Shown one piece after another: positions 1,323 to 14,133 of a stretch of DNA of 64,000 nucleotides; positions within the stretch are counted from its first letter, which is position 1, and the number at the start of each line of letters is the position of its first letter. The stretch lies in assembly GCA_027023305.1 (NCBI GenBank), contig JALVVR010000048.1, forward strand, positions 47,579 to 111,578, written 5' to 3'. The notes under the pieces were generated by a model, which had not been told where the DNA came from, ran no database searches, and saw only the letters and a list, made by a program, of their open reading frames with translations. The position numbers and the translations under genes are program-made. This DNA is from Campylobacterales bacterium (lineage in GTDB: Bacteria > Campylobacterota > Campylobacteria > Campylobacterales > QNZT01).

Positions 1323-4300
1323 TCACCTCTTTATAAAAGGTTTTCTTTCAGATTCATAAGGAACTTCTGTTATATTTCCTAAAAGGTCTATATGTAGTTT
1401 TTTTAAACTTAATATTTTTGTTTTAACTCCTGTACCTTTCAAAGCACGATTATCATAATTAACATCAAATTCTAAAGATAATAAAATCTCATTATTATTT
1501 TTAAAATTTTCATATGATATTGCAAGTTTTGTACTGTTTTTAAAATTTTCTATTGAATAATTTTTTGTTAATTCTTCCAAAAGTAGAGTAAAATAGTTTT
1601 TTTTATCTTTTAATTCTTTCACATCATTAATTTTAATATCTAAAAACAAGCCTAAAATTCCATTTGGTTTTTTCTTTTTAATCATAGGAAGATTTGCAAT
1701 TTTAGCAATCTCTTCTTTTTTAGTATCTACATCCATTTGATTAATTATGTTGATTTTCAACCTATAAACTTTAACCTCTTTTATAAAAATTTCATCCTCT
1801 TTATTATCCATAGAAAGTAAAGTGATATTTGCTGTACCAGTATGTGGAGAAATATAATATCCTCTAATTATTTCTTTTTTAGTAACAACTTCAATCAAAT
1901 CATTTGGATAAAGTGAAAAAATAAATTTTTGTCTATTAGGGTTAAACTCTTCCCAAGCTTTATTTCCTGCAGTTATAAACTTTGTAGGTAAAGGCTTATT
2001 TAAATCTTTTAAATATAATGGAATTAAATAGTATTTCTCTTTTTTTACATCTTTAAATACATCTGTACGAACAATTTCACCATTATCAACAATACCACCT
2101 CGTATCTCTAAGCCTTTTTTGGATTTTTCATCTTTTTTTCTAGGATTATCACTATGTACCTTGCCACTATTTTTAACCTTTGGTTGCCGAACTACATTGA
2201 TTTTCTCTATCATTGTTTTAATATCCTTGACAAAATCATCATAAGGTTTAGTAAATTTTGGCTTATCTTTTCCATCTCGTTTATAAGTTTCTAAAGCATG
2301 ATAGTATTTAGAAAGCCTATTAATAATTGTAGCATTTGAAAAAGCAATCAAAATGGCATCTTCAAAATGATGATAATGATTTTCTCTATTTTTATTTTCT
2401 AATCCCCATTGATATCTAAGTGTACTTGTTAATTTACCTGAAACGACATAAACTCTTCTCTCTTGATTATTATCTTTAAATTTTAGATATTTTTCAACAT
2501 AGTTCTTAACTACTTTACTTATGATACGAGTATCATTTAAGTGTCTTTTTAAAAAATCTTGTTCTTTAGTAGCAAAGTCTTTCATGGTAAGTTTTCCTAC
2601 TTTAGCTTTACCCAGTATCTCTCTTGAACGAACAAAATTTTCAAATTTTTCCCATCTCTCTCTATTTTCTCCAAAATACTCATATGGAGTTTTGTTTGAT
2701 TTGAACTGATTTTCTTTGGATAAAACTAAAACTTTGTTACTTATACTATCATCTGAACTTCTACTGATAGGTAAAATATGATCAACTTCATAAGAGTTTC
2801 CAAATGTAGTTATCTCTCTTACAATCTCTTCAGCTGAAATATGTGTAAAAGAGTATAAACAAAGCTCACCTTGCTGTTGCCATAACCTTATTTTTAAAAT
2901 ATTTTTGGAACTAATAAACTTTTCACCACAATTTTCTGCAATAAAATCTACAGCTATTTGTTTATTTCTACTATCTCTTAACTGTGCAGATGTTATCTCT
3001 TTTTTTTCTTTTTGAGTGTTTATTTCTCTTGCCAACTCTATATTTAATCTATCAAATGTCCACTCATTATCATTATTTATCTCTCTGTGTTTTTTAAGTA
3101 TAGAATTTATCAGATGCCTACTTTTTGTAATGGCTCTTGTTACTATTGGGTTAGATATCATAAGCTGAGTATCTGTTAGAGGAGGTAAAAAGAGTTTAGG
3201 AGTAACTTCTATCTTCATATCTTGTTCTAAAATAGCCTCATCAACTCTGTAACCTTTTTCCAAATATGGTAATATTTTCTTAACAGCTTCAGTAGATACA
3301 CTCAAATATCCACTAAAATTTAGGTAAATAATTTTGTCGAAAATATTTTTTTGCTCTTCTTGATTTAATTTAGTTTCTTTTAAAAATATTTTCAACTTAT
3401 CTTTTCTTCTTTTAAGAGATTTTTCATAAGTCAAAAGGTCAGTAATCTTTTCATATATCTCTAAATTATTAAAAAGTTTATTAAATATCAACTCATCGTC
3501 TATAGTATTTTTAATTTTTAAAAAATATTCCAAGTAAATAATATGCTTTTGAGTATCCTCCTCATCACCTTTAAATTTACTTTTACTAGATATATTTAAA
3601 ATCTTTTTAGCTTCTGTTTTTGTAATCTTTCTGTCATGTGCCTCTTTTAAAAGCAGTTCTATCTCTTCTGTGTTTAAAGCCCTATATTCCTCTTGTTCAG
3701 GTTCTTTTACTCTAAGATTTACTAAAATACCTCTAGCTACAAATACTTCACTACTATAAAGAGCTTTTAATGCTCTTTTTTTTCCTTCAATAAGTGAACA
3801 GTTTCCTATCATATTTTTAAGTGATTTAGGCTCATTTACAAATAAAAACTCTTGCATGATTTTATCTATAAATTCATCTGTAACATAAAGATTTTTTAAC
3901 TCTTTTTGCTTATGTAAAATTTGCCTTAACTCATCTTCTAGGTAGTTACGATGGATAGAAAATTTATAATCAGGACTATGATCTTTTTTAGCTCTGTTTC
4001 TACTTTTTTTACCTTTTAATTCATACTCATTATAAATAAACTCACCATAAGTTCTATATGAAAAATCTTTAAACTCCTCTTTTAAAGCATTTTGAGCCTC
4101 TTTAATTTTACCTACATCACTATCATTATTATCATCTATCTCATACTTAAAACCTCTTCTATTTGCAATATGCACAATAACTCTAGTTAACTCTTTCCCA
4201 TCAAGTAACTCATCTAATCCTTTAGTTCTTAAGCTTAAAGGGGTATCTTTTTTTATACCTTTTCTAAAAAGTGGAGCTATTTTATTTTTAGGAGTTATAA

Positions 4301-4547
4301 GTAAGTTTTTTGAAACTAGTTTATAAGCAGAACACAATTTTTTTATTTTAAGTAATCTTCTTTCATGATTTTTGTTTGTTATTCGACTACTTCTATAACC
4401 TCGCCTAATAGAAGCTAAAGTGTTATGTTTTTCATCTTCTGGAGCTTCAAATACATGAACACCTCCATCTATAAGATTATTATTTTTTGTATCAACTAAT
4501 GCCCAACCTATAGAAGTATGCCCTAAATCCAATCCAAGAGTAACCAT
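1323..4547 (-). CDS. cas9: CRISPR-associated RNA-guided nuclease Cas9 (type II-C)
   Basis: The effector nuclease of the CRISPR system, 1074 aa. RuvC-I: LGLDLGHTSIGW with D7. An arginine-rich bridge helix lies at about 48-70. RuvC-II: NIELARE with E504. HNH: YEVDHILPISRSSDDSISNK with D589, H590 and N604/N613. RuvC-III: HHFEDAILIA with H727 and D730. All nuclease residues are present. The C-terminal end (about 1039-1074, including LHIDLLGNI) resembles other Campylobacterota Cas9 proteins. The roughly 110 residues before it (925-1038) look like an addition to the PAM-interacting region, since C. jejuni Cas9 is 984 aa. The start is supported by AGAAGG about 9 nt upstream. It is first in the operon and divergent from the tracrRNA gene. 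Confidence 0.97.
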   Translation of the reverse strand: MVTLGLDLGHTSIGWALVDTKNNNLIDGGVHVFEAPEDEKHNTLASIRRGYRSSRITNKNHERRLLKIKKLCSAYKLVSKNLLITPKNKIAPLFRKGIKKDTPLSLRTKGLDELLDGKELTRVIVHIANRRGFKYEIDDNNDSDVGKIKEAQNALKEEFKDFSYRTYGEFIYNEYELKGKKSRNRAKKDHSPDYKFSIHRNYLEDELRQILHKQKELKNLYVTDEFIDKIMQEFLFVNEPKSLKNMIGNCSLIEGKKRALKALYSSEVFVARGILVNLRVKEPEQEEYRALNTEEIELLLKEAHDRKITKTEAKKILNISSKSKFKGDEEDTQKHIIYLEYFLKIKNTIDDELIFNKLFNNLEIYEKITDLLTYEKSLKRRKDKLKIFLKETKLNQEEQKNIFDKIIYLNFSGYLSVSTEAVKKILPYLEKGYRVDEAILEQDMKIEVTPKLFLPPLTDTQLMISNPIVTRAITKSRHLINSILKKHREINNDNEWTFDRLNIELAREINTQKEKKEITSAQLRDSRNKQIAVDFIAENCGEKFISSKNILKIRLWQQQGELCLYSFTHISAEEIVREITTFGNSYEVDHILPISRSSDDSISNKVLVLSKENQFKSNKTPYEYFGENRERWEKFENFVRSREILGKAKVGKLTMKDFATKEQDFLKRHLNDTRIISKVVKNYVEKYLKFKDNNQERRVYVVSGKLTSTLRYQWGLENKNRENHYHHFEDAILIAFSNATIINRLSKYYHALETYKRDGKDKPKFTKPYDDFVKDIKTMIEKINVVRQPKVKNSGKVHSDNPRKKDEKSKKGLEIRGGIVDNGEIVRTDVFKDVKKEKYYLIPLYLKDLNKPLPTKFITAGNKAWEEFNPNRQKFIFSLYPNDLIEVVTKKEIIRGYYISPHTGTANITLLSMDNKEDEIFIKEVKVYRLKINIINQMDVDTKKEEIAKIANLPMIKKKKPNGILGLFLDIKINDVKELKDKKNYFTLLLEELTKNYSIENFKNSTKLAISYENFKNNNEILLSLEFDVNYDNRALKGTGVKTKILSLKKLHIDLLGNITEVPYESERKPFIKR

Positions 4548-4722: not shown

Positions 4723-5193
4723 TTAATACAGATTTATATTTTTTAAAACATCTTTACATACGAGATGAGATACATCCCCATCATGAGAGAGTATAGTCCT
4801 AACAACAGAGGAGCTTATAAAAGCATTTTCAAGTGTTGGCATAAGATAGACAGTTTCTATTGTAGGGTCTAGTGAAGAGTTTGCATATCCCATTTGTAAC
4901 TCATACTCAAAATCACTAACTGCCCTTAGCCCTCTAACTATAAACTTTATATCCATCTCTTTTGCAAAATCAACAAGCAAGTTATCAAAGCTAACTACCT
5001 TAACACCCTCTATATCTTTTGTAGCAAGTTTTGCCATTTCTACTCTTTGACTCACATCAAACATAGGTTTTTTTGCTTTTGAGTTAGCAACTGCAACTAC
5101 TACTTCATCAAAAATATGACTAGCTCTTTTTATAATGTCTAAGTGACCATTTGTTATAGGATCAAAAGTTCCTGGATATATCGTTTTTTTCAT
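4723..5193 (-). CDS. coaD: Phosphopantetheine adenylyltransferase
   Basis: Catalyses the fourth step of coenzyme A synthesis: ATP plus 4'-phosphopantetheine gives dephospho-CoA and pyrophosphate, in the cytoplasm. At 156 aa it has the family's normal length. The nucleotidyltransferase signature [15 protein letters not shown] (from residue 7, with the GH of the T/HxGH motif) and the C-terminal ISSSVVRTI motif are present. It begins directly before the ubiX stop codon with no gap, so it belongs to the flgA-ubiX-coaD operon and is last in it. The tracrRNA gene is convergent with its 3' end. Confidence 0.96.
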
Positions 5194-5715
5194 CTAACTT
5201 CCCCACCTTTTATATAAATCATGCTCTATTTTTAACATATCGAACCACTTCCCTATCAAAAAATCCTCCATCATCTCCAAACTTTGTTGATTTGAGTAGT
5301 AACCCAAGACTGGAGGAGCTATAACTACTCCTAAATTTGAAAGTTTTAGCATGTTTTCCAAAGCTATGGAAGAGTATGGCATCTCTCTTGGAGCAAGTAC
5401 TAGTAGCCTTTTCTCTTTTATCATCACAGATGCCGTTCTTGTAAGTAGGTTGTCGGCTATACCACACGAGATTTTGGCTAAGGTATTCATACTAGTTGGA
5501 ACTATTATCATAGCATCAGCACTAAAACTTCCACTTGAAATTGGAGCTGCAATATCAGAGTTTTTAAACTCATCTATCCCCTCCTCCTTTTCAAAAACCA
5601 CCTTTGCACTCTGACTTTGTACTAAAAAAATCTCTATATTTTTAGGTAAAGCTTCTATAAATCTTTTTGCCAACCTTGCCCCACTAGCTCCACTTATCCC
5701 TACAACTAACTTCAC
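5194..5715 (-). CDS. ubiX: Flavin prenyltransferase UbiX
   Basis: UbiX attaches a dimethylallyl group to FMN to make prenylated FMN, the cofactor of UbiD-type decarboxylases. At 173 aa it has the usual length, with the N-terminal flavin-binding GISGASGARLAKRF and the PTSMNTLAKISCGIADNLLTR region. The start ATG overlaps the flgA stop by 4 nt. Its client, a UbiD-family decarboxylase, is encoded 34 kb away in this window (39219-41039), so the pair is split between two loci. Confidence 0.94.
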   Translation of the reverse strand: MKLVVGISGASGARLAKRFIEALPKNIEIFLVQSQSAKVVFEKEEGIDEFKNSDIAAPISSGSFSADAMIIVPTSMNTLAKISCGIADNLLTRTASVMIKEKRLLVLAPREMPYSSIALENMLKLSNLGVVIAPPVLGYYSNQQSLEMMEDFLIGKWFDMLKIEHDLYKRWGS

Positions 5716-6359
5716 TTTATCAAAACCTTGTTAAAGGATAATACTTTTGCTTTTAGTATCTTTTTACTTCCTCTTTTTACTCTTATATACTCTCCAACTC
5801 TTCCATCTTCTAAAGCTCTAACTGGAAAATCAAGCACGATACTACCGTCTCTAGCCTCAGCTGTTACTTCATCATTTCTATGTATATCTGGTATCTTTCT
5901 AACCATTCGGTTTGTGAGAATCTTTCCTCTAACTATAAAAGTTTTTGCCTCTAGTTTTGCTACATTTGTTACAGGTTTATCATAAAAGTTATCAAACTTC
6001 AAAGGTATTTGAGTAAAAAAATCCATAGAGAGTGGAGTTTTATTTCTTATATCCATATTTGCCAAAAGCACTTGTACGGTAGCATCTATATAGTATTTAA
6101 AATATATCCTCTTTTCATTTTTTCCATCACTAAAAATTGCTGAAAAATTTCCGTTTTCTCTTTTTATGGAATTTTTAGGAAAATAAACTTTTTGTATTTT
6201 ATAACCTTTGGGGACACTATTATTGGCTTTTATCTTTATACTTTTTATAGTCATAGTTGGATAGTAATTGGTAAACTTTTTATCAAGATAATTTTCTAAC
6301 TTTTGTTCATAAGAAAAAAGTTGTAATGAGAGTAAAAGTATTATAAATATTGTTTTCAT
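5712..6359 (-). CDS. flgA: Flagellar basal body P-ring formation chaperone FlgA
   Basis: FlgA is the periplasmic chaperone for assembly of the flagellar P ring. I place the start at the ATG beginning MKTIFIILLLSLQLFS, which gives an N-terminal signal peptide. An upstream in-frame ATG at 6473 would add 38 residues that break that pattern and cover a 39-bp inverted repeat. The C-terminal part (about residues 85-210) is the SAF/ChapFlgA domain, with KTFIVRGKILTNRMVRKIPDIHRND and the closing VRALEDGRVGEYIRVKR. It is first in flgA-ubiX-coaD and overlaps ubiX by 4 nt. The ribosome site before the chosen start is weak. Confidence 0.85.
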   Translation of the reverse strand: MKTIFIILLLSLQLFSYEQKLENYLDKKFTNYYPTMTIKSIKIKANNSVPKGYKIQKVYFPKNSIKRENGNFSAIFSDGKNEKRIYFKYYIDATVQVLLANMDIRNKTPLSMDFFTQIPLKFDNFYDKPVTNVAKLEAKTFIVRGKILTNRMVRKIPDIHRNDEVTAEARDGSIVLDFPVRALEDGRVGEYIRVKRGSKKILKAKVLSFNKVLIK

Positions 6360-6402
6360 GAGAATATAATACCTAAAATAGATGAAAAATTTGTGAAGCA
6401 AA

Positions 6403-6441
6403 GGCAAGATGCTATAAAGGAGGCAAAAAGAGCATCTTGCC
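6403..6441. repeat. Perfect 11-bp inverted repeat upstream of flgA
   Basis: The arms GGCAAGATGCT (6403-6413) and AGCATCTTGCC (6431-6441) are exact inverse copies around a 17-nt loop that reads ATAAAGGAGGCAAAAAG on the plus strand. It lies between the divergent flgA and queC genes. It could be a regulatory RNA hairpin in the flgA leader or a protein-binding site. No U-run follows on the plus strand; on the minus strand it is followed only by TTTGCTTC. Confidence 0.4.
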
Positions 6442-6566
6442 TGTATAAAAAATAATTTTGAGTTAATTCTCAATTTCTTATGTCATAATGACGGCGAGAT
6501 TATACATATTAAGACTAAAATTATCCTTTTTAATTTTAACTAAATTTATTTTTTAAGGAAAAATTC

Positions 6567-7232
6567 ATGGAGAAAGCAGTTTGTATCATAAGTGGAGGTA
6601 TGGATAGTGCCTTGAGTAGCTACTTTGCAAAGTATAGAGATGGTTTTGAGATTATAGCTGTTCACTTTAATTATGGACAAAAAACAGAAGATAAAGAGTT
6701 ACAATGCTACCAAGATATAGCTAAAAGCTTAAATGCAATCAAGATGATAGATTTGGATTTGCATTTTATAAAAGATATTGGTGGTTCTGCCCTAACTGAT
6801 GATAGTATAGCTGTACCAAAAGATGGTTTAAAACCAGGTATTCCCGTAACTTATGTTCCTTTTAGAAATGGTATATTTTTATCTATTGCAGCTGCTATTG
6901 CTGAAAAAGAGGGAGCAAGTGCTATATATATAGGAGTTGTTGAAGAGGATAGTAGTGGTTATCCTGATTGTAGTGAAAGTTTTATCACATCATTGCAACA
7001 TGCCATAGATAAAGGAACAAAACCAGAAACAAAAATAGAGTTAAAGACACCTCTAGTACATTTAAAAAAAGAGGAGATTGTAAAAGAGGCTAAGAAACTT
7101 GATGTTCCACTTAGTAAAACTTGGAGTTGCTATGAGAGCAGTGATAAGGCATGTGGAGTTTGTGATAGTTGCAGACTTCGACTAAAAGGCTTTGAAAAAG
7201 CTAATTTAAAAGATGAAATAGAGTATAATTAA
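6567..7232 (+). CDS. queC: 7-cyano-7-deazaguanine synthase QueC
   Basis: QueC converts 7-carboxy-7-deazaguanine to preQ0 with ATP and ammonia, a step in queuosine synthesis for tRNA. At 221 aa it is typical. The N-terminal PP-loop [13 protein letters not shown] binds ATP, and the C-terminal cysteines [18 protein letters not shown] form the zinc site. A good ribosome site (AAGGAAAAA) precedes the ATG. I looked for a preQ1 riboswitch in the 200-bp leader and did not find its conserved pattern. Confidence 0.95.
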
Positions 7233-7235
7233 CCC

Positions 7236-7457
7236 ATGAATAATATAAAAAACTGTATAGATAAATACTTAAAAAAACTAGAAGATGAAGTTATGAGCCT
7301 ACTTGCTGATACTTCTATGCCACTAACAATAAAAAACCAAAAGATGGAACCTCTAGCTTTACAAAAAAAAGTGCTTCTTAAAACCAAAGAGGAACTAAAA
7401 AAGATAGAAAATACCAACTTTGTAGCAGAATGCAAAATGTACCAAAAAGGAAAATAA
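7236..7457 (+). CDS. Small charged protein upstream of dut, function unknown
   Basis: A 73-aa ORF starts 3 nt after the queC stop and overlaps the dut start by 1 nt (TAATG). It is lysine- and glutamate-rich, with no signal peptide or membrane segment, and is predicted to be mostly helical (KYLKKLEDEVMSLLAD, KKVLLKTKEELKKIENTN). The two cysteines (C7, C66) are isolated. I do not recognise a family. Tight packing between queC and dut supports it being a real gene, but the ribosome site is weak. Confidence 0.6.
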   Translation: MNNIKNCIDKYLKKLEDEVMSLLADTSMPLTIKNQKMEPLALQKKVLLKTKEELKKIENTNFVAECKMYQKGK

Positions 7458-8143
7458 TGACAAACAAAGATAAACTTATAGAAATGCTAACCCTACAACA
7501 AAAGTTAAATGATGAAACAAATGGAGAGGGTTGGGAAAATGGATATACAAAACAAAACCGACTTATAAATTGGAGAAGATGTATATATATGGAACTTGCT
7601 GAACTTGTTGACAGCTTTAACTGGAAACACTGGAAAGATATAAACATAGCCCCTGATTGGGAAAATGTCAAAATAGAAGTAGTTGATATATGGCACTTTA
7701 TACTAAGCCTTGCACTTGAAGAGTATAAGTTAGCACATAAAGGAAATATAGAAGATATAGCAAATTATATCTTAGAGACTCAACACTTCGCAGACTTTGA
7801 AAATGAACAGCAAATAGTTCATGATGAAGATATCTTTATGATTATAAACACTATAGAACACTTTATAAAAGATACCCTTGACGGAGAAAAGTTTAACAAA
7901 CTAATAGATGACTTTTTAGAAGTAGCTCTTCAATGTGGACTGAACATAGACATACTCTATAAGTTTTATATTGCAAAAAATGTTCTAAATCAGTTTCGCC
8001 AAGACCACGGATACAAAGATGGAACATATATAAAAAGTTGGAATGGCAAAGAGGATAACATAGTTATGCTAGAAATCCTTGAAGACAAACTACTAAATTC
8101 AAAAGAACTCTATCATGAACTTAAACAAAATTATCCAGCTTAG
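7457..8143 (+). CDS. dut: Dimeric (all-alpha) dUTPase
   Basis: Hydrolyses dUTP to dUMP and pyrophosphate, keeping uracil out of DNA and supplying dUMP for dTMP synthesis. This is the all-alpha dimeric type known from C. jejuni and Leishmania, not the common trimeric one. Metal-binding acidic helices are visible: YMELAELVDSFNWKHWK and KIEVVDIWHFIL. I chose the ATG at 7457 (AAAAAGGA just upstream), overlapping the preceding stop codon, rather than an in-frame ATG 27 nt earlier. That gives 228 aa. The 3' end overlaps the next gene by 29 nt. Confidence 0.9.
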   Translation: MTNKDKLIEMLTLQQKLNDETNGEGWENGYTKQNRLINWRRCIYMELAELVDSFNWKHWKDINIAPDWENVKIEVVDIWHFILSLALEEYKLAHKGNIEDIANYILETQHFADFENEQQIVHDEDIFMIINTIEHFIKDTLDGEKFNKLIDDFLEVALQCGLNIDILYKFYIAKNVLNQFRQDHGYKDGTYIKSWNGKEDNIVMLEILEDKLLNSKELYHELKQNYPA

Positions 8144-8831
8144 TCTTAAAGACTTTTTCTCAGCAAAGTTTTTAACTCTCTCACTAGCTCCTATCATGAT
8201 AGTTTTTGCTATTGTATTTGGAATTTACTTTTTGACTGATATTGACTTCGCTACTCTTTTAGCAGTTGATTCAACTACACATCCTTGGCTTGGATGGATA
8301 CTATCTTTTGGATTTATGCAAAGTTTTATAAACTTCTTTCTGTATATCTTTATCTGGGGTCTTTTAGTAGTAGTAAGTGTTGTTCTATCTATCATAGTAG
8401 TTGGATTTTTTACTCCAAAAATAGTAAAAGAGATACAAAAAAGACACTATCCACACATAAAACTAACAAATCAAAACTTTACTCTCTCAAACTCAGTTTT
8501 TATGTATTTAAAAGTATTTTTTATATTTTTTACTCTGCTTTTGATAACCCTACCTTTAGCAGTAATACCAGGGATAAACTTAGCAGTTTTATATATACCT
8601 TTTTACTACCTATTTCACAACTTTTTAGTTCTAGATGTAGGCTCATCGATAGTATCAAAAGATGAATTTTTATCTATCGTAAAATCAAATAAAACACTTT
8701 TTAGGTCAACTACACTAACTCTGTATCTTGTATCTTTGATACCTTTTTCAGGTATTTTGTTACAAGTTTTTTATGTGATTGTTATCTCTCATGAATTTTT
8801 TATGAAAAAAGAGGAGCTTCTTAACCATTAG
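8115..8831 (+). CDS. EI24 domain membrane protein
   Basis: A 238-aa inner-membrane protein with about five hydrophobic helices (e.g. FLTLSLAPIMIVFAIVFGIYF, LLVVVSVVLSIIVVGFF, VFFIFFTLLLITLPLAVIP). The pattern and the conserved FFTPKIVKEIQKRHYP-like loop match the EI24/CysZ-like family found in Campylobacterota. The biological role is not established; the related CysZ proteins import sulfate. It overlaps the end of dut by 29 nt, in another frame, so expression is probably coupled. Confidence 0.75.
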   Translation: MNLNKIIQLSLKDFFSAKFLTLSLAPIMIVFAIVFGIYFLTDIDFATLLAVDSTTHPWLGWILSFGFMQSFINFFLYIFIWGLLVVVSVVLSIIVVGFFTPKIVKEIQKRHYPHIKLTNQNFTLSNSVFMYLKVFFIFFTLLLITLPLAVIPGINLAVLYIPFYYLFHNFLVLDVGSSIVSKDEFLSIVKSNKTLFRSTTLTLYLVSLIPFSGILLQVFYVIVISHEFFMKKEELLNH

Positions 8832-9135
8832 GGGTAAAACCACTCTCCTCTGCTCCAAAAGGATTAGCACTTAACTTATCTTCCTCAGCTATCCTAGCCT
8901 CATACTCCAACATACTCATTCTTACTTCATTTATCTGCTCTTTAGTTACATTTTCATCACTACTCCAAGCAACTTCTATATCTCCTCCATACTTATCTCC
9001 AAGTATTGCTATCTTCTTTTCAAACTCACTAAAATCTAAACAATACTCTTTTGTATCCTCAGCCTCATCACTAATCTCTATATACCATCTTCCCACAGGA
9101 TTTGACATTATTTTTGCTTCTAAAACTCCACTCAT
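8821..9135 (-). CDS. Small acidic hypothetical protein
   Basis: A 104-aa acidic cytoplasmic protein with a strong ribosome site (AAAAGGAAAATT before ATG). It begins with a beta-rich segment (PVGRWYIEISDEAEDTKEYCLDF), followed by helices rich in Glu. I recognise no domain. It is encoded downstream of the S24 repressor gene in the same direction (37-bp gap), so the two may be cotranscribed. Its 3' end overlaps the convergent EI24 gene by 11 nt. Confidence 0.65.
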   Translation of the reverse strand: MSGVLEAKIMSNPVGRWYIEISDEAEDTKEYCLDFSEFEKKIAILGDKYGGDIEVAWSSDENVTKEQINEVRMSMLEYEARIAEEDKLSANPFGAEESGFTPNG

Positions 9136-9172
9136 AAATTTTCCTTTTATTTTTTAGTTTCCTATATTTTGC

Positions 9173-9835
9173 CTACATTCCTCTTACAGAACCAACAACT
9201 TTTCCTATTACTTCTATATTTTCACTTCTTACAGTCTCTACTCCATACATAGAATTATCTGAGATTAAATCCAGGCTTCCATCACTTTTTACCATCACTC
9301 TTTTTACAAAAAGTCCTATCTCAGTGGAAACTGCAAAGATACCATTTTTGTTAACATCTTTTAGAGTTCTGTTGATAAATATAATATCCCCATCATGAAG
9401 TGTAGGCTCCATAGAATCTCCCAAAACATTTATAGCATCTATATTTTTCATCTGGGCTTTTCCACCCATCAAAGTAGCCATATGCTCATCTATCGCTATC
9501 TCATCACTCTCATCATCATAGTTAAATGCTCCTCCCCCTGCACTAGCAAATATATCTCCAAAATATCTTACATTTACATACTTTTCAGTCTGGGCTTCTA
9601 AACTCTTTGTTGATTGGTTATACAAAAGCCAATTTATTGAGATTTTTCTCTGAGCACAAAACTCTAAAATCTCCTCAAGAGGTAGTCGTCCTCTTTTTTT
9701 CATAGTTGCAAAAGATAGTTGCTTTATACCTAAAACTTCTGCAACCTCTTTATCAAAAATTCTCTCTTTACCAACCTCTTCAGAAATAATCTCTTTCATC
9801 TTTGGTAAAACATCTTCAAGTCTTAGCATTTTCAC
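9173..9835 (-). CDS. LexA/CI-like repressor: HTH plus S24 self-cleaving peptidase
   Basis: A 220-aa repressor. Residues 1-75 form a bacteriophage CI-type helix-turn-helix (DKEVAEVLGIKQLSFATMKKRGRLP). Residues 88-218 are a peptidase S24 domain with the nucleophile S141 in LGDSMEPTLHDGD and the lysine K178 in FVKRV. An Ala-Gly bond at 99-100 (ASAGGG) is a candidate self-cleavage site of the LexA/CI/UmuD family, so RecA-stimulated self-cleavage is plausible. A perfect palindrome lies just upstream of its start, over its own -10 region, suggesting self-repression. It is divergent from a Y-family polymerase. The ribosome site is AAAGGAG. Confidence 0.85.
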   Translation of the reverse strand: MKMLRLEDVLPKMKEIISEEVGKERIFDKEVAEVLGIKQLSFATMKKRGRLPLEEILEFCAQRKISINWLLYNQSTKSLEAQTEKYVNVRYFGDIFASAGGGAFNYDDESDEIAIDEHMATLMGGKAQMKNIDAINVLGDSMEPTLHDGDIIFINRTLKDVNKNGIFAVSTEIGLFVKRVMVKSDGSLDLISDNSMYGVETVRSENIEVIGKVVGSVRGM

Positions 9836-9850
9836 TCCTTTTTTAGAAAT

Positions 9851-9871
9851 AATATGTCATTTTGACATATT
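9851..9871. promoter_or_regulatory. Palindromic operator between repressor and polymerase genes
   Basis: Arms AATATGTCA (9851-9859) and TGACATATT (9863-9871) are perfect inverted copies with a 3-bp spacer. The left arm overlaps TATTAT on the minus strand (9849-9854), a likely -10 for the repressor gene. The right arm contains TTGACA reading toward the polymerase. This is the expected site for the S24 repressor, which could then control both directions. Confidence 0.7.
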
Positions 9872-9933
9872 TCTTTGTTTTTAGAAAATATTTATGTAAA
9901 ATCATATCAAATAAAACATAAAAAGGAATAAAA

Positions 9934-10035
9934 ATGAAAATTTGTACTATTATAAATCATATAAAAAGAAGTTTTGAATTGTTTTTGGATATATTAGAAG
10001 AGATACTTTTAGTTACTAATTATAAACTTTTATGA
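9934..10035 (+). CDS. 33-aa small ORF coupled to the Y-family polymerase
   Basis: The reading frame starts with MKICTIINHIKRSFELF, has a good ribosome site (AAAAAGGA, 6 nt spacing), and its stop TGA overlaps the polymerase start as ATGA. The peptide has a basic N-terminal half and a hydrophobic helix near the end (LFLDILEEILLV). It may be a real small protein working with the polymerase or a leader that couples translation. The polymerase ATG has no ribosome site of its own, which supports coupling. I recognise no family. Confidence 0.55.
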   Translation: MKICTIINHIKRSFELFLDILEEILLVTNYKLL

Positions 10036-11294
10036 TTTTGCACCTTGACTTAGACTCATTTTTTGTCTCAGCTCATAGAACAAAGGATAAATCACTTTTA
10101 AATAAACCTGTGATTGTAGGTGGAAGAAGTGATCCTTTTATATTTGACAAAAGTTTCAACAAAACAAAAGTCCAAAACCAAAACAGTGGAGCTTTTGTCC
10201 CTGCTCTTTTTATAAGAGATAAAGAAGCTACTTTTGAAGAGTATTTTAAAGAGGGAGACAAACTTCGTGGTATCGTGATAACTGCATCTTATGAGGCTAG
10301 AGAGATGGGTATAAAAACTGGTATGAGCATACGAGAGGCGATTTGTATATGTAAAGATTTGATAGTTTTAACTCCTACACATAAACTCTATCATGATTTT
10401 TCAAAAAAACTAAAAGATTTTTTATATACTAAGATTCCTATCATAGAGCAGTACAGTATAGATGAGTTTTTCACTGATGTTGGTGGGTGGGTAGAAGATA
10501 ATGAAGTCGAAAAGTTTGCAAAAGAGATAAAATATGATATCTTTAAAGAGTTTGGATTACCTATATCCATAGGGATTGCCAAAACAAAATGGACAGCAAA
10601 ATTTGCAACAAGTTTTGCAAAACCTTATGGAGTAAAACTTATACTTCCAAATGGGCTTGATAATTACTTAAAAGAGACTCCCATAGAAAAGTTTGCAGGG
10701 ATTGGTAAAAGTTTTACCAAAAAATTACACTCTTACAAAAAGTTCACCCTTTGGGATATAAAGACTTCTAAATCCTTGCTTTACTCATTTGGAAGAGGTG
10801 GAGAGGATATATATAAAAGAGTTTGTGGTGAAGATGATGAAAAAGTAATACCAAACAAATCTAGAAAATCAATAGGTATATCAAGAACTTTTGACCCAAT
10901 AGAAGATAGAGATGAGATAAAAAGAAGAGTTATTATTTTGTCTCGTCATTTAGTTTTCATGATAAGTAAGTATCACTATACTCCTACAACCTTGCATCTC
11001 TCTATCAGATACGAGTATGCAAAAAGTAAAAAGCAGATCACTTTCAATAGAATTTTTAATGAACTATTTTTTGTAAAAACCACTTTAAAGCTTTTTAATG
11101 AACTTGATATTTATAAATATTCAAAAGTAATAAGAATTTCTATAAATCTTAGAAACTTTACAAAGCATCCCAAAGAGGCTTACTCACTTTTTGAGTATGA
11201 AAAAGATAAAAAGTTTAATACTCTTCTAAAACAAACTACAAAAATGAGGGAAAAATACGGGATAGATATAATCAGGTTAGCTAGTGAAGTGTAG
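10032..11294 (+). CDS. Y-family translesion DNA polymerase (DinB/UmuC type)
   Basis: A lesion-bypass DNA polymerase, 420 aa. Catalytic acidic residues are in the N-terminal LHLDLDSFF (D6, D8) and in YSIDEFFTDV. The fingers motif ITASYEAREMGIKTGM is present. A helix-hairpin-helix follows (IEKFAGIGKSFTKKLHSY), then a little-finger domain after about residue 290. Compared with E. coli DinB (351 aa) it has about 45-50 extra residues after PVIVGG (roughly 32-79). I see no obvious clamp-binding motif at the C-terminus. It is probably controlled by the divergent S24 repressor, making it a candidate damage-inducible gene. Confidence 0.9.
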   Translation: MILHLDLDSFFVSAHRTKDKSLLNKPVIVGGRSDPFIFDKSFNKTKVQNQNSGAFVPALFIRDKEATFEEYFKEGDKLRGIVITASYEAREMGIKTGMSIREAICICKDLIVLTPTHKLYHDFSKKLKDFLYTKIPIIEQYSIDEFFTDVGGWVEDNEVEKFAKEIKYDIFKEFGLPISIGIAKTKWTAKFATSFAKPYGVKLILPNGLDNYLKETPIEKFAGIGKSFTKKLHSYKKFTLWDIKTSKSLLYSFGRGGEDIYKRVCGEDDEKVIPNKSRKSIGISRTFDPIEDRDEIKRRVIILSRHLVFMISKYHYTPTTLHLSIRYEYAKSKKQITFNRIFNELFFVKTTLKLFNELDIYKYSKVIRISINLRNFTKHPKEAYSLFEYEKDKKFNTLLKQTTKMREKYGIDIIRLASEV

Positions 11295-11311
11295 GAGGGA
11301 AAACCTCCTAC
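11291..11311. terminator. Hairpin terminator between convergent genes
   Basis: GTAGGAGG (11291-11298) and CCTCCTAC (11304-11311) form a perfect 8-bp stem with a 5-nt loop. It overlaps the polymerase stop codon and lies 10 nt from the hpf stop, so it probably ends transcription from both sides. No long U-run follows. Confidence 0.6.
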
Positions 11312-11320
11312 TATTAAGTG

Positions 11321-11959
11321 TTAGTAAAGTCCAAAAAGACTGTTTCTTATCTTGTGTAAAACTCTAGTTCTTCCACTCTCATCGATAAAAATCATTAAAG
11401 ATTTATTCTCACTTTTTATCTTTTCAAGAGCACTCTCAATAGTTAAAGATTTTTCATCTTCTATATCAACTTTAACAATATCATCTTTGTTTTTTATCAA
11501 AACTTTTACACTGTCTTCATAATCATTATATACCAAAAAATCTCTCTTGCTATCTTTTAAAACTTCAACTGCATCTTCATGAGCCAAAGGTTTATAAAGT
11601 TCTAACTCCATAGGTATAATCTCATCAAACTCTTCAATACTATCATCGCCACTATCTTTTTCTACTTGATAATCAGTTATCTTATCATGATATCTTCTTA
11701 AAACTTTTTTAGCTCTCTCTACTGCTAAGTCCACAGCAGCATACATATCTTTATCATCTTGTTTTACAACTATTGTATTTTTATGAGCTATATTTATTGA
11801 AAACTCTACTATAAAACCTTTCTTCTCATCTGGAGATACAACAACTCTAACAGAGATAATATCTAAATTATATTTCTTTAAAGTCTCTATAGCACTCTGT
11901 ATATGTACTTTCATCGCATCGGTTAATTCTAACTGTCTTCCTACTAAACTAGTATTCAT
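11321..11959 (-). CDS. hpf: Ribosome hibernation promoting factor, long form
   Basis: Binds the 30S subunit and pairs 70S ribosomes into inactive 100S dimers when growth stops. At 212 aa it is the long form. Residues 1-100 are the S30AE/RaiA fold (LVGRQLELTDAMKVHIQSAIETLKKY, DMYAAVDLAVERAKKVLRRYHDKI). Residues 145-205 form a divergent C-terminal dimerisation domain (MELELYKPLAHEDAVEVLKDSKRDFLVYND). It is a single gene with its own promoter about 50 bp upstream and an AAGGAGAT ribosome site. Confidence 0.9.
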   Translation of the reverse strand: MNTSLVGRQLELTDAMKVHIQSAIETLKKYNLDIISVRVVVSPDEKKGFIVEFSINIAHKNTIVVKQDDKDMYAAVDLAVERAKKVLRRYHDKITDYQVEKDSGDDSIEEFDEIIPMELELYKPLAHEDAVEVLKDSKRDFLVYNDYEDSVKVLIKNKDDIVKVDIEDEKSLTIESALEKIKSENKSLMIFIDESGRTRVLHKIRNSLFGLY

Positions 11960-12006
11960 GACGATCTCCTTAAAATTTATTTGAGAATCTAACTTCTCAT
12001 AAGGTT

Positions 12007-12012
12007 ATTATA
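12007..12012 (-). promoter_or_regulatory. -10 box of hpf
   Basis: The minus strand reads TTTGTATAATAACC, with a perfect TATAAT hexamer at 12007-12012, about 48 bp before the hpf start. It is preceded by T-rich DNA, as is common for Campylobacterota sigma-70 promoters. The leader between it and hpf can form a small GAGAA/TTCTC hairpin. Confidence 0.55.
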
Positions 12013-12053
12013 CAAAAAAATCGTAAATATTAAGTTAATTTCTTAAATATTTT

Positions 12054-12488
12054 CTAAGGTTTTTGAAGTGTTCTTCTGTGTAATTTTATAGGTTCACTCA
12101 AACCAGCTTGAGTTGCTTCAACTGTTACATCCATTATCGCTGTATAGTTAGAATCAGAAGTTTGAACTCCATTATCTATAACATTAGGATTACAAGCAGT
12201 TGGTATTCCACTACCCATATATCTTATATCTATATTTGCTCTATATAAATTGTTATCAAAATTTATAGTCATATTTTTTATACAATCAACACTATTATCA
12301 TGTCCAGATATCGCCAAAAGAGCAAACTCTGTTGCACTTCTTAAGTAAAGTCTTGCTTGTTCTTTTATATAAAGATTACTAGTTTGCTTTACAGTAGAGC
12401 TTGAAAGCCCTATCATCAAAGACATCAAAACAGCAACAGTCATCATGATAATTATAGCTGTTATCAAGCCAAAACCTCTTCTTTTCAA
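12054..12488 (-). CDS. Minor pseudopilin lacking Glu5 (GspK/PilX-like)
   Basis: A 144-aa type II/IV pilin-like protein. The class III leader MKRRG is cut before FGLITAIIIMMTVAVLMSLMI, the hydrophobic assembly helix. Position 5 of the mature protein is Thr rather than the near-universal Glu, a feature of tip pseudopilins such as GspK, although GspK proteins are normally much longer. The remainder is a small globular part with two cysteines (SVDCIKN, PTACNPN). It is last in a three-gene pseudopilin operon and overlaps its neighbour by 4 nt. I cannot say whether the machine is type II secretion, a pilus or DNA uptake. Confidence 0.7.
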   Translation of the reverse strand: MKRRGFGLITAIIIMMTVAVLMSLMIGLSSSTVKQTSNLYIKEQARLYLRSATEFALLAISGHDNSVDCIKNMTINFDNNLYRANIDIRYMGSGIPTACNPNVIDNGVQTSDSNYTAIMDVTVEATQAGLSEPIKLHRRTLQKP

Positions 12489-13441
12489 TATATCGCCCTC
12501 TCTTTACAAAAACCATAGTTAGTTTTTTCATCTCTAAGACAAAGTTTTGCTCTTATAGTACTTCCTGTTTGGACAAATCTAAAAGTACTAACATGTTTGC
12601 TTAACAAAGCTTTTTTAGTATTATGATTACTATATCTCTCATTTTGCCATGGTTGATAGTTGTAATATAGGTATAAATCAAAATCTTTGATATGTTTAGG
12701 AGGAGTACTCTTATCAAATAAATCATTACCATTTCCATCTTTTGCATTTACTACATTTTCAGGAACTATCGCATAAGCACTCCAAGCCAAATAATAATGT
12801 TCACAGTAATCAACTGAACCTGGTGGTGTATCAAATACTAGTTGGGTATTTGTAGTTTTATGTACTGGATATACATTAGTATGTGTATTATTTAGATAAC
12901 CATAACTTTTTACACTACTATTATGAGAGCACTTAAAAACTATAGCAGCTCCTCCACCATTATTATTTAAGTTAACACCACCGTATGATAGGTTATCTAT
13001 ATCTATTTTAGTTTTATCAAGTCTTGAGCCACTTGTGACAAAACCATTAGAATTGGTACTAGCATTATCTATATCTATAAACCCACTCCAACCAGCAAAT
13101 CTATTAATCCCTCCAGTGGTAACCCACTCTCCTATCATACCTTCATTATCATATCCTATCCACTCTAATACATCATGATTTATACTAATACTAGGATCTG
13201 AAAGTTTCAGATAATTAGCTCCTCTATTACTTGCAACAACACTATCTTTTATCCTATACTGAAGTCTTTTTGAAATTATATCTAGTACCTGTTCTGTATC
13301 AGCTTGAAGTTTATTTATAACTTTACTTCTTATATATCCCTCATACATATGAGCTATAATATTTGTTCCAATCATGGTTACTATTCCCAAAACTACTATG
13401 ACCATAACTAATTCGATAAGTGTAAAAGCTCTTCTTTTCAC
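12485..13441 (-). CDS. Pseudopilin-like protein with large C-terminal domain
   Basis: A 318-aa protein starting MKRRAFTLIELVMVIVVLGIV, the prepilin signature followed by the N-terminal helix. Glu5 is present, but the residue before the cleavage site is Ala instead of the usual Gly; prepilin peptidase tolerates Ala in some substrates. The long Asn/Ser-rich C-terminal part is of unknown fold and has paired cysteines (KCSHNS, DYCEHYY, KLCLRDEKTNYGFCKE). It resembles GspJ/PilW-type minor pilins in size. It is the middle gene of the three, overlapping the next gene by 4 nt and the first by 1 nt. Confidence 0.7.
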   Translation of the reverse strand: MKRRAFTLIELVMVIVVLGIVTMIGTNIIAHMYEGYIRSKVINKLQADTEQVLDIISKRLQYRIKDSVVASNRGANYLKLSDPSISINHDVLEWIGYDNEGMIGEWVTTGGINRFAGWSGFIDIDNASTNSNGFVTSGSRLDKTKIDIDNLSYGGVNLNNNGGGAAIVFKCSHNSSVKSYGYLNNTHTNVYPVHKTTNTQLVFDTPPGSVDYCEHYYLAWSAYAIVPENVVNAKDGNGNDLFDKSTPPKHIKDFDLYLYYNYQPWQNERYSNHNTKKALLSKHVSTFRFVQTGSTIRAKLCLRDEKTNYGFCKERAIY

Positions 13442-14133
13442 TATTTTGTCCTCGTTAGTAGTTTTGATTGACCGATATTTGAGAGATAACTTCTCAAAAC
13501 TATGCTCTTTCCAAGATTTGGCATAGTAGTTCTTATTTGAACCATTTTTATATTTGTACTATTTTTATTGTTTGTTATAGGATTTAAAGTAGAAGGATTT
13601 AAAGAGGCTGTTATACTTGTTTGAGAAAAATCAATATTATCACTTATATAATATATTTTTGAAGTTATAGATGTATTTTTATCTTTATAATCAAAAGCTC
13701 CACTTCCACCTATATTTTTACTTTCATCATGAAAATCATTAATACTTTGTTTATTTGAGTTATTAACTGTTGTATCTGGATAAACAACTCCTGGATTTAT
13801 ATAGTCAAAAAATCTTCTTCTCTTATTTAAATAAATACAACCTATTCTTAGATTATTATCATTTATCCCACTTGTTACTCTATTTAGTTCACTATCTCCA
13901 GCCTTTACATCTAGTATTCTCAAAATCTTATTTGTGCTATCATAAGAGTTTTTATCCCAAGGATAAGAGAGTATATTCCCCATCTTAGTTGAAGTAGCTA
14001 AAATAGCTTCTTGTATCATTGAAAATTCATTTGATTTTGCTGACTCTTTTAAAAGCATAGGTACACTCATGAGAGAAATAGCTATGATTATTATCGCAAA
14101 AACAACCTCTATTAAAGAAAATCCTCTTTTCAA
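13441..14133 (-). CDS. Prepilin-type pseudopilin (PilV/GspI-like)
   Basis: A 230-aa pilin-like protein with a canonical leader MKRG, cleavage before FSLIEVVFAIIIIAISLM, and Glu5 present. The globular domain has no family signature I recognise; the cysteine at RIGCIYL is single. As first gene of the operon it probably sets expression of all three minor pilins. Such triplets usually form the tip complex that primes a type IV pilus or a type II secretion pseudopilus. No secretin, ATPase or prepilin peptidase gene is in this window. Confidence 0.7.
   Translation of the reverse strand: MKRGFSLIEVVFAIIIIAISLMSVPMLLKESAKSNEFSMIQEAILATSTKMGNILSYPWDKNSYDSTNKILRILDVKAGDSELNRVTSGINDNNLRIGCIYLNKRRRFFDYINPGVVYPDTTVNNSNKQSINDFHDESKNIGGSGAFDYKDKNTSITSKIYYISDNIDFSQTSITASLNPSTLNPITNNKNSTNIKMVQIRTTMPNLGKSIVLRSYLSNIGQSKLLTRTK

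Follow-up and report, generated by a model that had tools for sequence, protein, structure and literature searches.

Campylobacter and Helicobacter, of the Epsilonproteobacteria, are cited as having neither LexA nor a typical SOS response (PMC2390758). The locus described here, from a member of the Campylobacterales, sets a CI/LexA-like repressor gene divergent from a translesion polymerase gene with a palindrome between them (Table 1), which raises the question of what such a repressor controls in this phylum. Judged from sequence, the protein is very probably an analogue of LexA that stands, as master repressor, at the head of an SOS-type DNA-damage regulon in Campylobacterota without LexA. 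Free-living relatives of Campylobacter thus appear to have an SOS response after all, under a phage-type self-cleaving repressor whose targets would be an error-prone polymerase, recA and, in part of the group, integron integrases, and the protein is best read as one that works like LexA from outside the LexA family.

Table 1. Features of the repressor-polymerase locus. Positions are those of the window, the whole 64,000-nucleotide stretch of DNA that was analysed.
Feature	Position	Strand	Basis
S24/CI-like repressor, proposed SOS regulator (LexA analogue)	9173..9829	-	Pfam/PHROG matches, invariant residues, AlphaFold model
Possible -10 (TATTAT) for the repressor gene; overlaps the edge of the operator	9849..9854	-	Inferred from sequence inspection
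Operator AATATGTCA-TTT-TGACATATT	9851..9871	.	Between the divergent repressor and polymerase genes; recurs in genome and relatives
Possible -10 (TAAAAT) of the ORF33-polymerase promoter	9897..9902	+	Inferred from sequence inspection
33-aa ORF, translated leader or small protein	9934..10035	+	Conservation; stop overlaps polymerase start (ATGA)
Y-family translesion DNA polymerase	10032..11294	+	PF00817/PF11799, active-site motifs intact

Read from its longest start, the minus-strand repressor ORF spans 9173-9835; translation most likely begins at the ATG at 9829, which has an AGGAG site and is the position at which the 26 aligned orthologs all start. The protein carries a helix-turn-helix at about residues 26-60, matches Peptidase_S24 (PF00717, 67 bits) and Phage_CI_repr (PF07022, 27 bits), and has phrog_4, a phage repressor family, as its top PHROG match. 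The predicted cleavage bond, Ala97-Gly98, and the dyad, Ser139 and Lys176, are unvarying in 26 of 26 aligned orthologs; together with the S24 domain they place the protein among the S24 peptidase regulators (the LexA/CI/UmuD superfamily). A Foldseek search with its AlphaFold model (pLDDT 84) returned phage 186 CI as the closest solved fold, then LexA and lambda CI, with structures of both in complex with RecA filaments among the matches; only this fold search found any, as sequence searches of solved structures with the single sequence and with a profile returned none. Its score against the LexA equivalog TIGR00498, 24.6 bits over residues 131-216 only, lies below the curated cut-off of 110.95 bits and places it outside LexA. 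Nor is it a prophage CI repressor surrounded by phage genes: full-length orthologs occur in about 44 of 160 sampled genomes, and the neighbours are dUTPase, CysZ/EI24-type, HPF and prepilin-like genes. Downstream of the repressor, a 104-aa ORF (8821-9135, minus strand) is kept in the nearest relative and has no Pfam or NCBIfam match. Elsewhere in the window, a 1074-aa ORF (1323-4547, minus strand) resembles type II Cas9 by eye, with HNH/RuvC-like sequence; scanning the window for Rfam families and tRNAs returned nothing.

The divergent gene encodes a Y-family (PolIV/DinB-like) polymerase, with IMS (PF00817, 140 bits) and IMS_C (PF11799, 38 bits) domains and the catalytic motifs LDLDSFF, SYEAR and YSIDEFF all intact. 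Its matches to the NCBIfam PolIV models are below cut-off, and it probably belongs to the epsilon-proteobacterial PolIV-like group named in PMC6511836, whose members would cluster with Arcobacter nitrofigilis PolIV (ADG92494.1). The 33-aa ORF that precedes it is kept in the nearest relative and at L030 under purifying selection (loci L030 and L246), with 7 synonymous changes over about 18 sites and 5 nonsynonymous changes over about 84 in the comparison with the nearest relative. The operator has a 9+3+9 architecture and lies just upstream of the possible -10 of the ORF33-polymerase promoter, at or beside the -35 region; the nearest relative has TAGAAT in place of that -10. In the same relative the operator reads AATATTTCA-ATT-TGAAATATT, with both arms altered together. 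The locus had been described in an earlier note as an S24/CI-like repressor with an Ala-Gly bond and a Ser-Lys pair, a divergent polymerase and a 33-aa ORF, and all of these are borne out; the perfect 21-bp palindrome also described was slightly overstated, as the 9-bp arms are perfect but the three central bases are not self-complementary.

Further copies of the palindrome, for which the earlier note had suggested a scan, occur across the same genome, where pattern searches with reversed-pattern controls supplied the site statistics. One near-perfect copy lies 74 nt upstream of recA, which is present in a single copy, and others precede rmuC, a Dcm-type methyltransferase and an N6 methyltransferase. 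The integron integrase intI (TIGR02249, 419 bits) also has an operator. On contig C68 (L022/L023) the operator occurs in two near-identical repeats, one of which adjoins a REP-associated tyrosine transposase gene, and a copy on contig C72 has no clear target gene. The integron integrase genes under the operator at L247 (C17:1-6000) and L250 lie right at or close to the ends of their contigs, which is what fragmentation of the assembly by cassette arrays would produce. A weak site with two mismatches lies about 170 nt upstream of a DprA-like gene (L008, C48:124647).

The assembly, in 73 contigs with 5.28% contamination, is probably a metagenome-assembled genome, so that some site-bearing contigs may derive from a co-binned relative. 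A second repressor-polymerase copy on contig C30 was considered as a paralog and rejected, the contig being colinear with window positions 4735-14103 at 83-85% identity; this 10.7-kb contig (L246, G000:C30:1-10745) probably comes from a co-binned second species, which fits the contamination estimate.

Across nine relatives the signal is sharper, with 31 operator sites at up to one mismatch and 1 for the reversed pattern. Where a gene lies nearby, sites precede recA, recG, comM/YifB and radA, as well as dinD (427 bits) and another integron integrase; some have no clear target. Operators also stand before Y-polymerase genes far from the repressor, orthologs of the present one in two relatives (G078 and G039), where there is no space upstream for the 33-aa ORF. 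Methyltransferases, an NgoPII nuclease, a YhcG nuclease, ORF6N proteins and Bro-N domain proteins complete the list of genes adjoining sites. A common operator therefore precedes the repressor, recA and translesion polymerase, as in an SOS-type regulon, and recA, rmuC, dinD and the integron intI are LexA targets elsewhere.

An operator before recA is widespread but not universal. With an operator called at no more than two mismatches, 23 of 29 genomes from the repressor-bearing family groups f1, f4, f7, f8 and f10 have one upstream of recA, compared with none of 13 from the repressor-bearing groups f5, f9 and f11 and none of 19 genomes without the repressor. Only 0.0007 of dinucleotide-shuffled promoters reach this criterion, and the association holds when all 42 sampled promoters of repressor-bearing families are set against the 19 repressor-less ones (23/42 versus 0/19, Fisher P = 1.3e-5). 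Besides f5, f9 and f11, a handful of genomes elsewhere (G127, G153, G041, G091 and G092) have no operator at recA, so that the regulon is not uniform. The location of the site before recA is kept across families, and Sulfuricurvum has two tandem operators there, about 28 nt apart. The repressor's own promoter has an operator in 17 of 29 genomes (22 of 29 at three mismatches), and within a genome the variant agrees between the repressor and recA promoters, as for the AATATTGCA type in L081/G028 and in G165.

Orthologs of full length, scoring at least 220 bits, were recovered from about 44 of the 160 Campylobacterota genomes sampled, in eight family groups, and the repressor is present in Sulfuricurvum, Sulfurimonas, Arcobacter, Malaciobacter, Poseidonibacter and Sulfurospirillum-type genomes. 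Cultured free-living species that encode it include Malaciobacter halophilus DSM 18005 (L060) and Poseidonibacter lekithochrous (L066). Two large groups, f2 and f3, which we infer to be Helicobacter- and Campylobacter-like, have weaker matches only. A separate lexA controlling the polymerase would have told against the earlier note's proposal of a LexA-independent damage switch; no LexA above the TIGR00498 cut-off was found in this genome or in any of the 160. That proposal now appears strongly supported. The switch is larger than the single operon then envisaged, because recA, rmuC, an integron integrase and other genes have the operator upstream as well. The suggested phage origin fits the class of the protein (phrog_4, 186 CI fold) but not a recent prophage remnant, the gene being a chromosomal regulator that is kept widely across the phylum.

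The groups f5 and f9, which are deeper, offer an informative variation. Here too, as seen in five genomes, the repressor gene is paired divergently with that of a Y-polymerase, but the intergenic operator is a different one, AATTAACA-N3-TGTTAA (TTAACA-N3-TGTTAA). The predicted recognition helix differs along with the operator: most sequences that go with the AATATKKCA operator have ATMK in this region, and those of f5/f9 have S(M/I)(L/M)K. Control of recA by the strict f5/f9 operator was considered and rejected, the palindrome being nearly unique to the repressor-polymerase promoter. The polymerase switch is probably the oldest part of the regulon, with recA either captured later or lost from it in some groups. 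We lean towards a history in which a divergent repressor-polymerase switch, as in f5/f9, was ancestral; recA, repair genes and integron integrases would then have been taken over as operator and recognition helix changed, and the system lost towards the Campylobacter- and Helicobacter-like groups.

At the level of the DNA and its translation, the analysis establishes the operator family, where its members lie, how they are conserved and how they co-vary with the repressor, as well as the conserved cleavage residues. The mechanism that we propose is that a repressor dimer would bind AATATKKCA-N3-TGMMATATT and so silence its own promoter along with the divergent polymerase, recA and other genes of repair and mobility. 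RecA filaments on single-stranded DNA would stimulate the repressor to cut itself at Ala97-Gly98 by means of Ser139 and Lys176, and this self-cleavage would induce the regulon upon damage.

One challenge to this mechanism concerns how the repressor is inactivated, as phage 186 CI, its best solved-fold match, is induced through the antirepressor Tum and not by RecA-dependent cleavage. Inactivation of a genuine regulon repressor by an antirepressor or another protease would also suit the presence of phage-like DNA-binding proteins (ORF6N, Bro-N domains) among the targets. We nevertheless regard it as unlikely, since the chromosomal orthologs never vary in the Ala-Gly bond, the Ser or the Lys, whereas the three phage-like homologs examined, from repressor-less f2 and f3, carry Met-Gly or Leu-Gly at that bond, and since RecA-filament complexes of LexA and lambda CI are among the structural matches.

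A more restrictive reading would make the protein a domesticated or remnant phage repressor that governs only itself and the adjoining polymerase, with the other palindromes belonging to a different regulator. Its CI-like domain architecture and the confinement of the strict f5/f9 operator would agree with this, but the matching variants at the repressor and recA promoters of one genome, the absence of the recA operator from all 19 genomes without the repressor and the classical repair functions of the targets make it quite improbable. That the palindromes are chance occurrences or AT-rich hairpins without regulatory meaning is scarcely credible: the genome is AT-rich and a looser search of it gave 29 matches against 19 in the control, yet the one-mismatch counts in relatives already contradict this, as do the joint alteration of both arms between close relatives and the fixed recA positions. 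The palindrome exceeds chance: copies stand before DNA-repair genes throughout the genome, and it has been kept from family to family.

A LexA-like regulator outside the LexA family, as we propose for this repressor, invites comparison with known systems. It would share with LexA and the canonical SOS response its targets (recA, translesion polymerase, rmuC, dinD, integron intI), autoregulation, cleavage residues and fold, and differs in its low score on the LexA model, its CI-like N-terminal domain and its operator. From 186 CI and lambda CI, which it resembles in domain architecture and solved fold, it differs in being chromosomal, conserved across the phylum, with no phage genes noted nearby, and in its proposed control of host repair genes. 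The non-canonical SOS repressors of Bacteroidetes (COG2932-related; PMC8565304) likewise join an S24 peptidase to an N-terminal domain resembling that of phage repressors, again in a phylum regarded as lacking LexA; the likeness is one of description, the phylum is another, and here integron integrases and unlinked Y-polymerases are in the regulon. FddR of Francisella (PMC13148647) is also a co-opted phage-type S24 repressor with an Ala-Gly bond and a Ser-Lys dyad in LexA-less bacteria, but its core response comprises three genes, without induction of recA, whereas here most genomes of five groups have the recA operator. HdiR of Lactococcus lactis, a LexA-like repressor of itself and a Y-family polymerase (UmuC homolog), runs a basic response (PMC8565304), and the regulon here is wider and includes recA. 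Precedents thus exist in Bacteroidetes and Francisella; our literature search, with poor coverage of subscription journals, found no SOS report in Campylobacterota.

If our reading is correct, many free-living Campylobacterota are predicted to have an SOS response, and its loss in host-associated groups would be explained. The family groups would also provide a ready series of intermediate states in the capture of recA by a phage-type repressor. A survey of integrons found no LexA motif of other than the E. coli type before any integrase (PMC3108266); integron integrase expression would here come under damage control outside LexA and, should the history from an ancestral switch hold, these would be the first integron integrases under SOS control by a non-LexA repressor.
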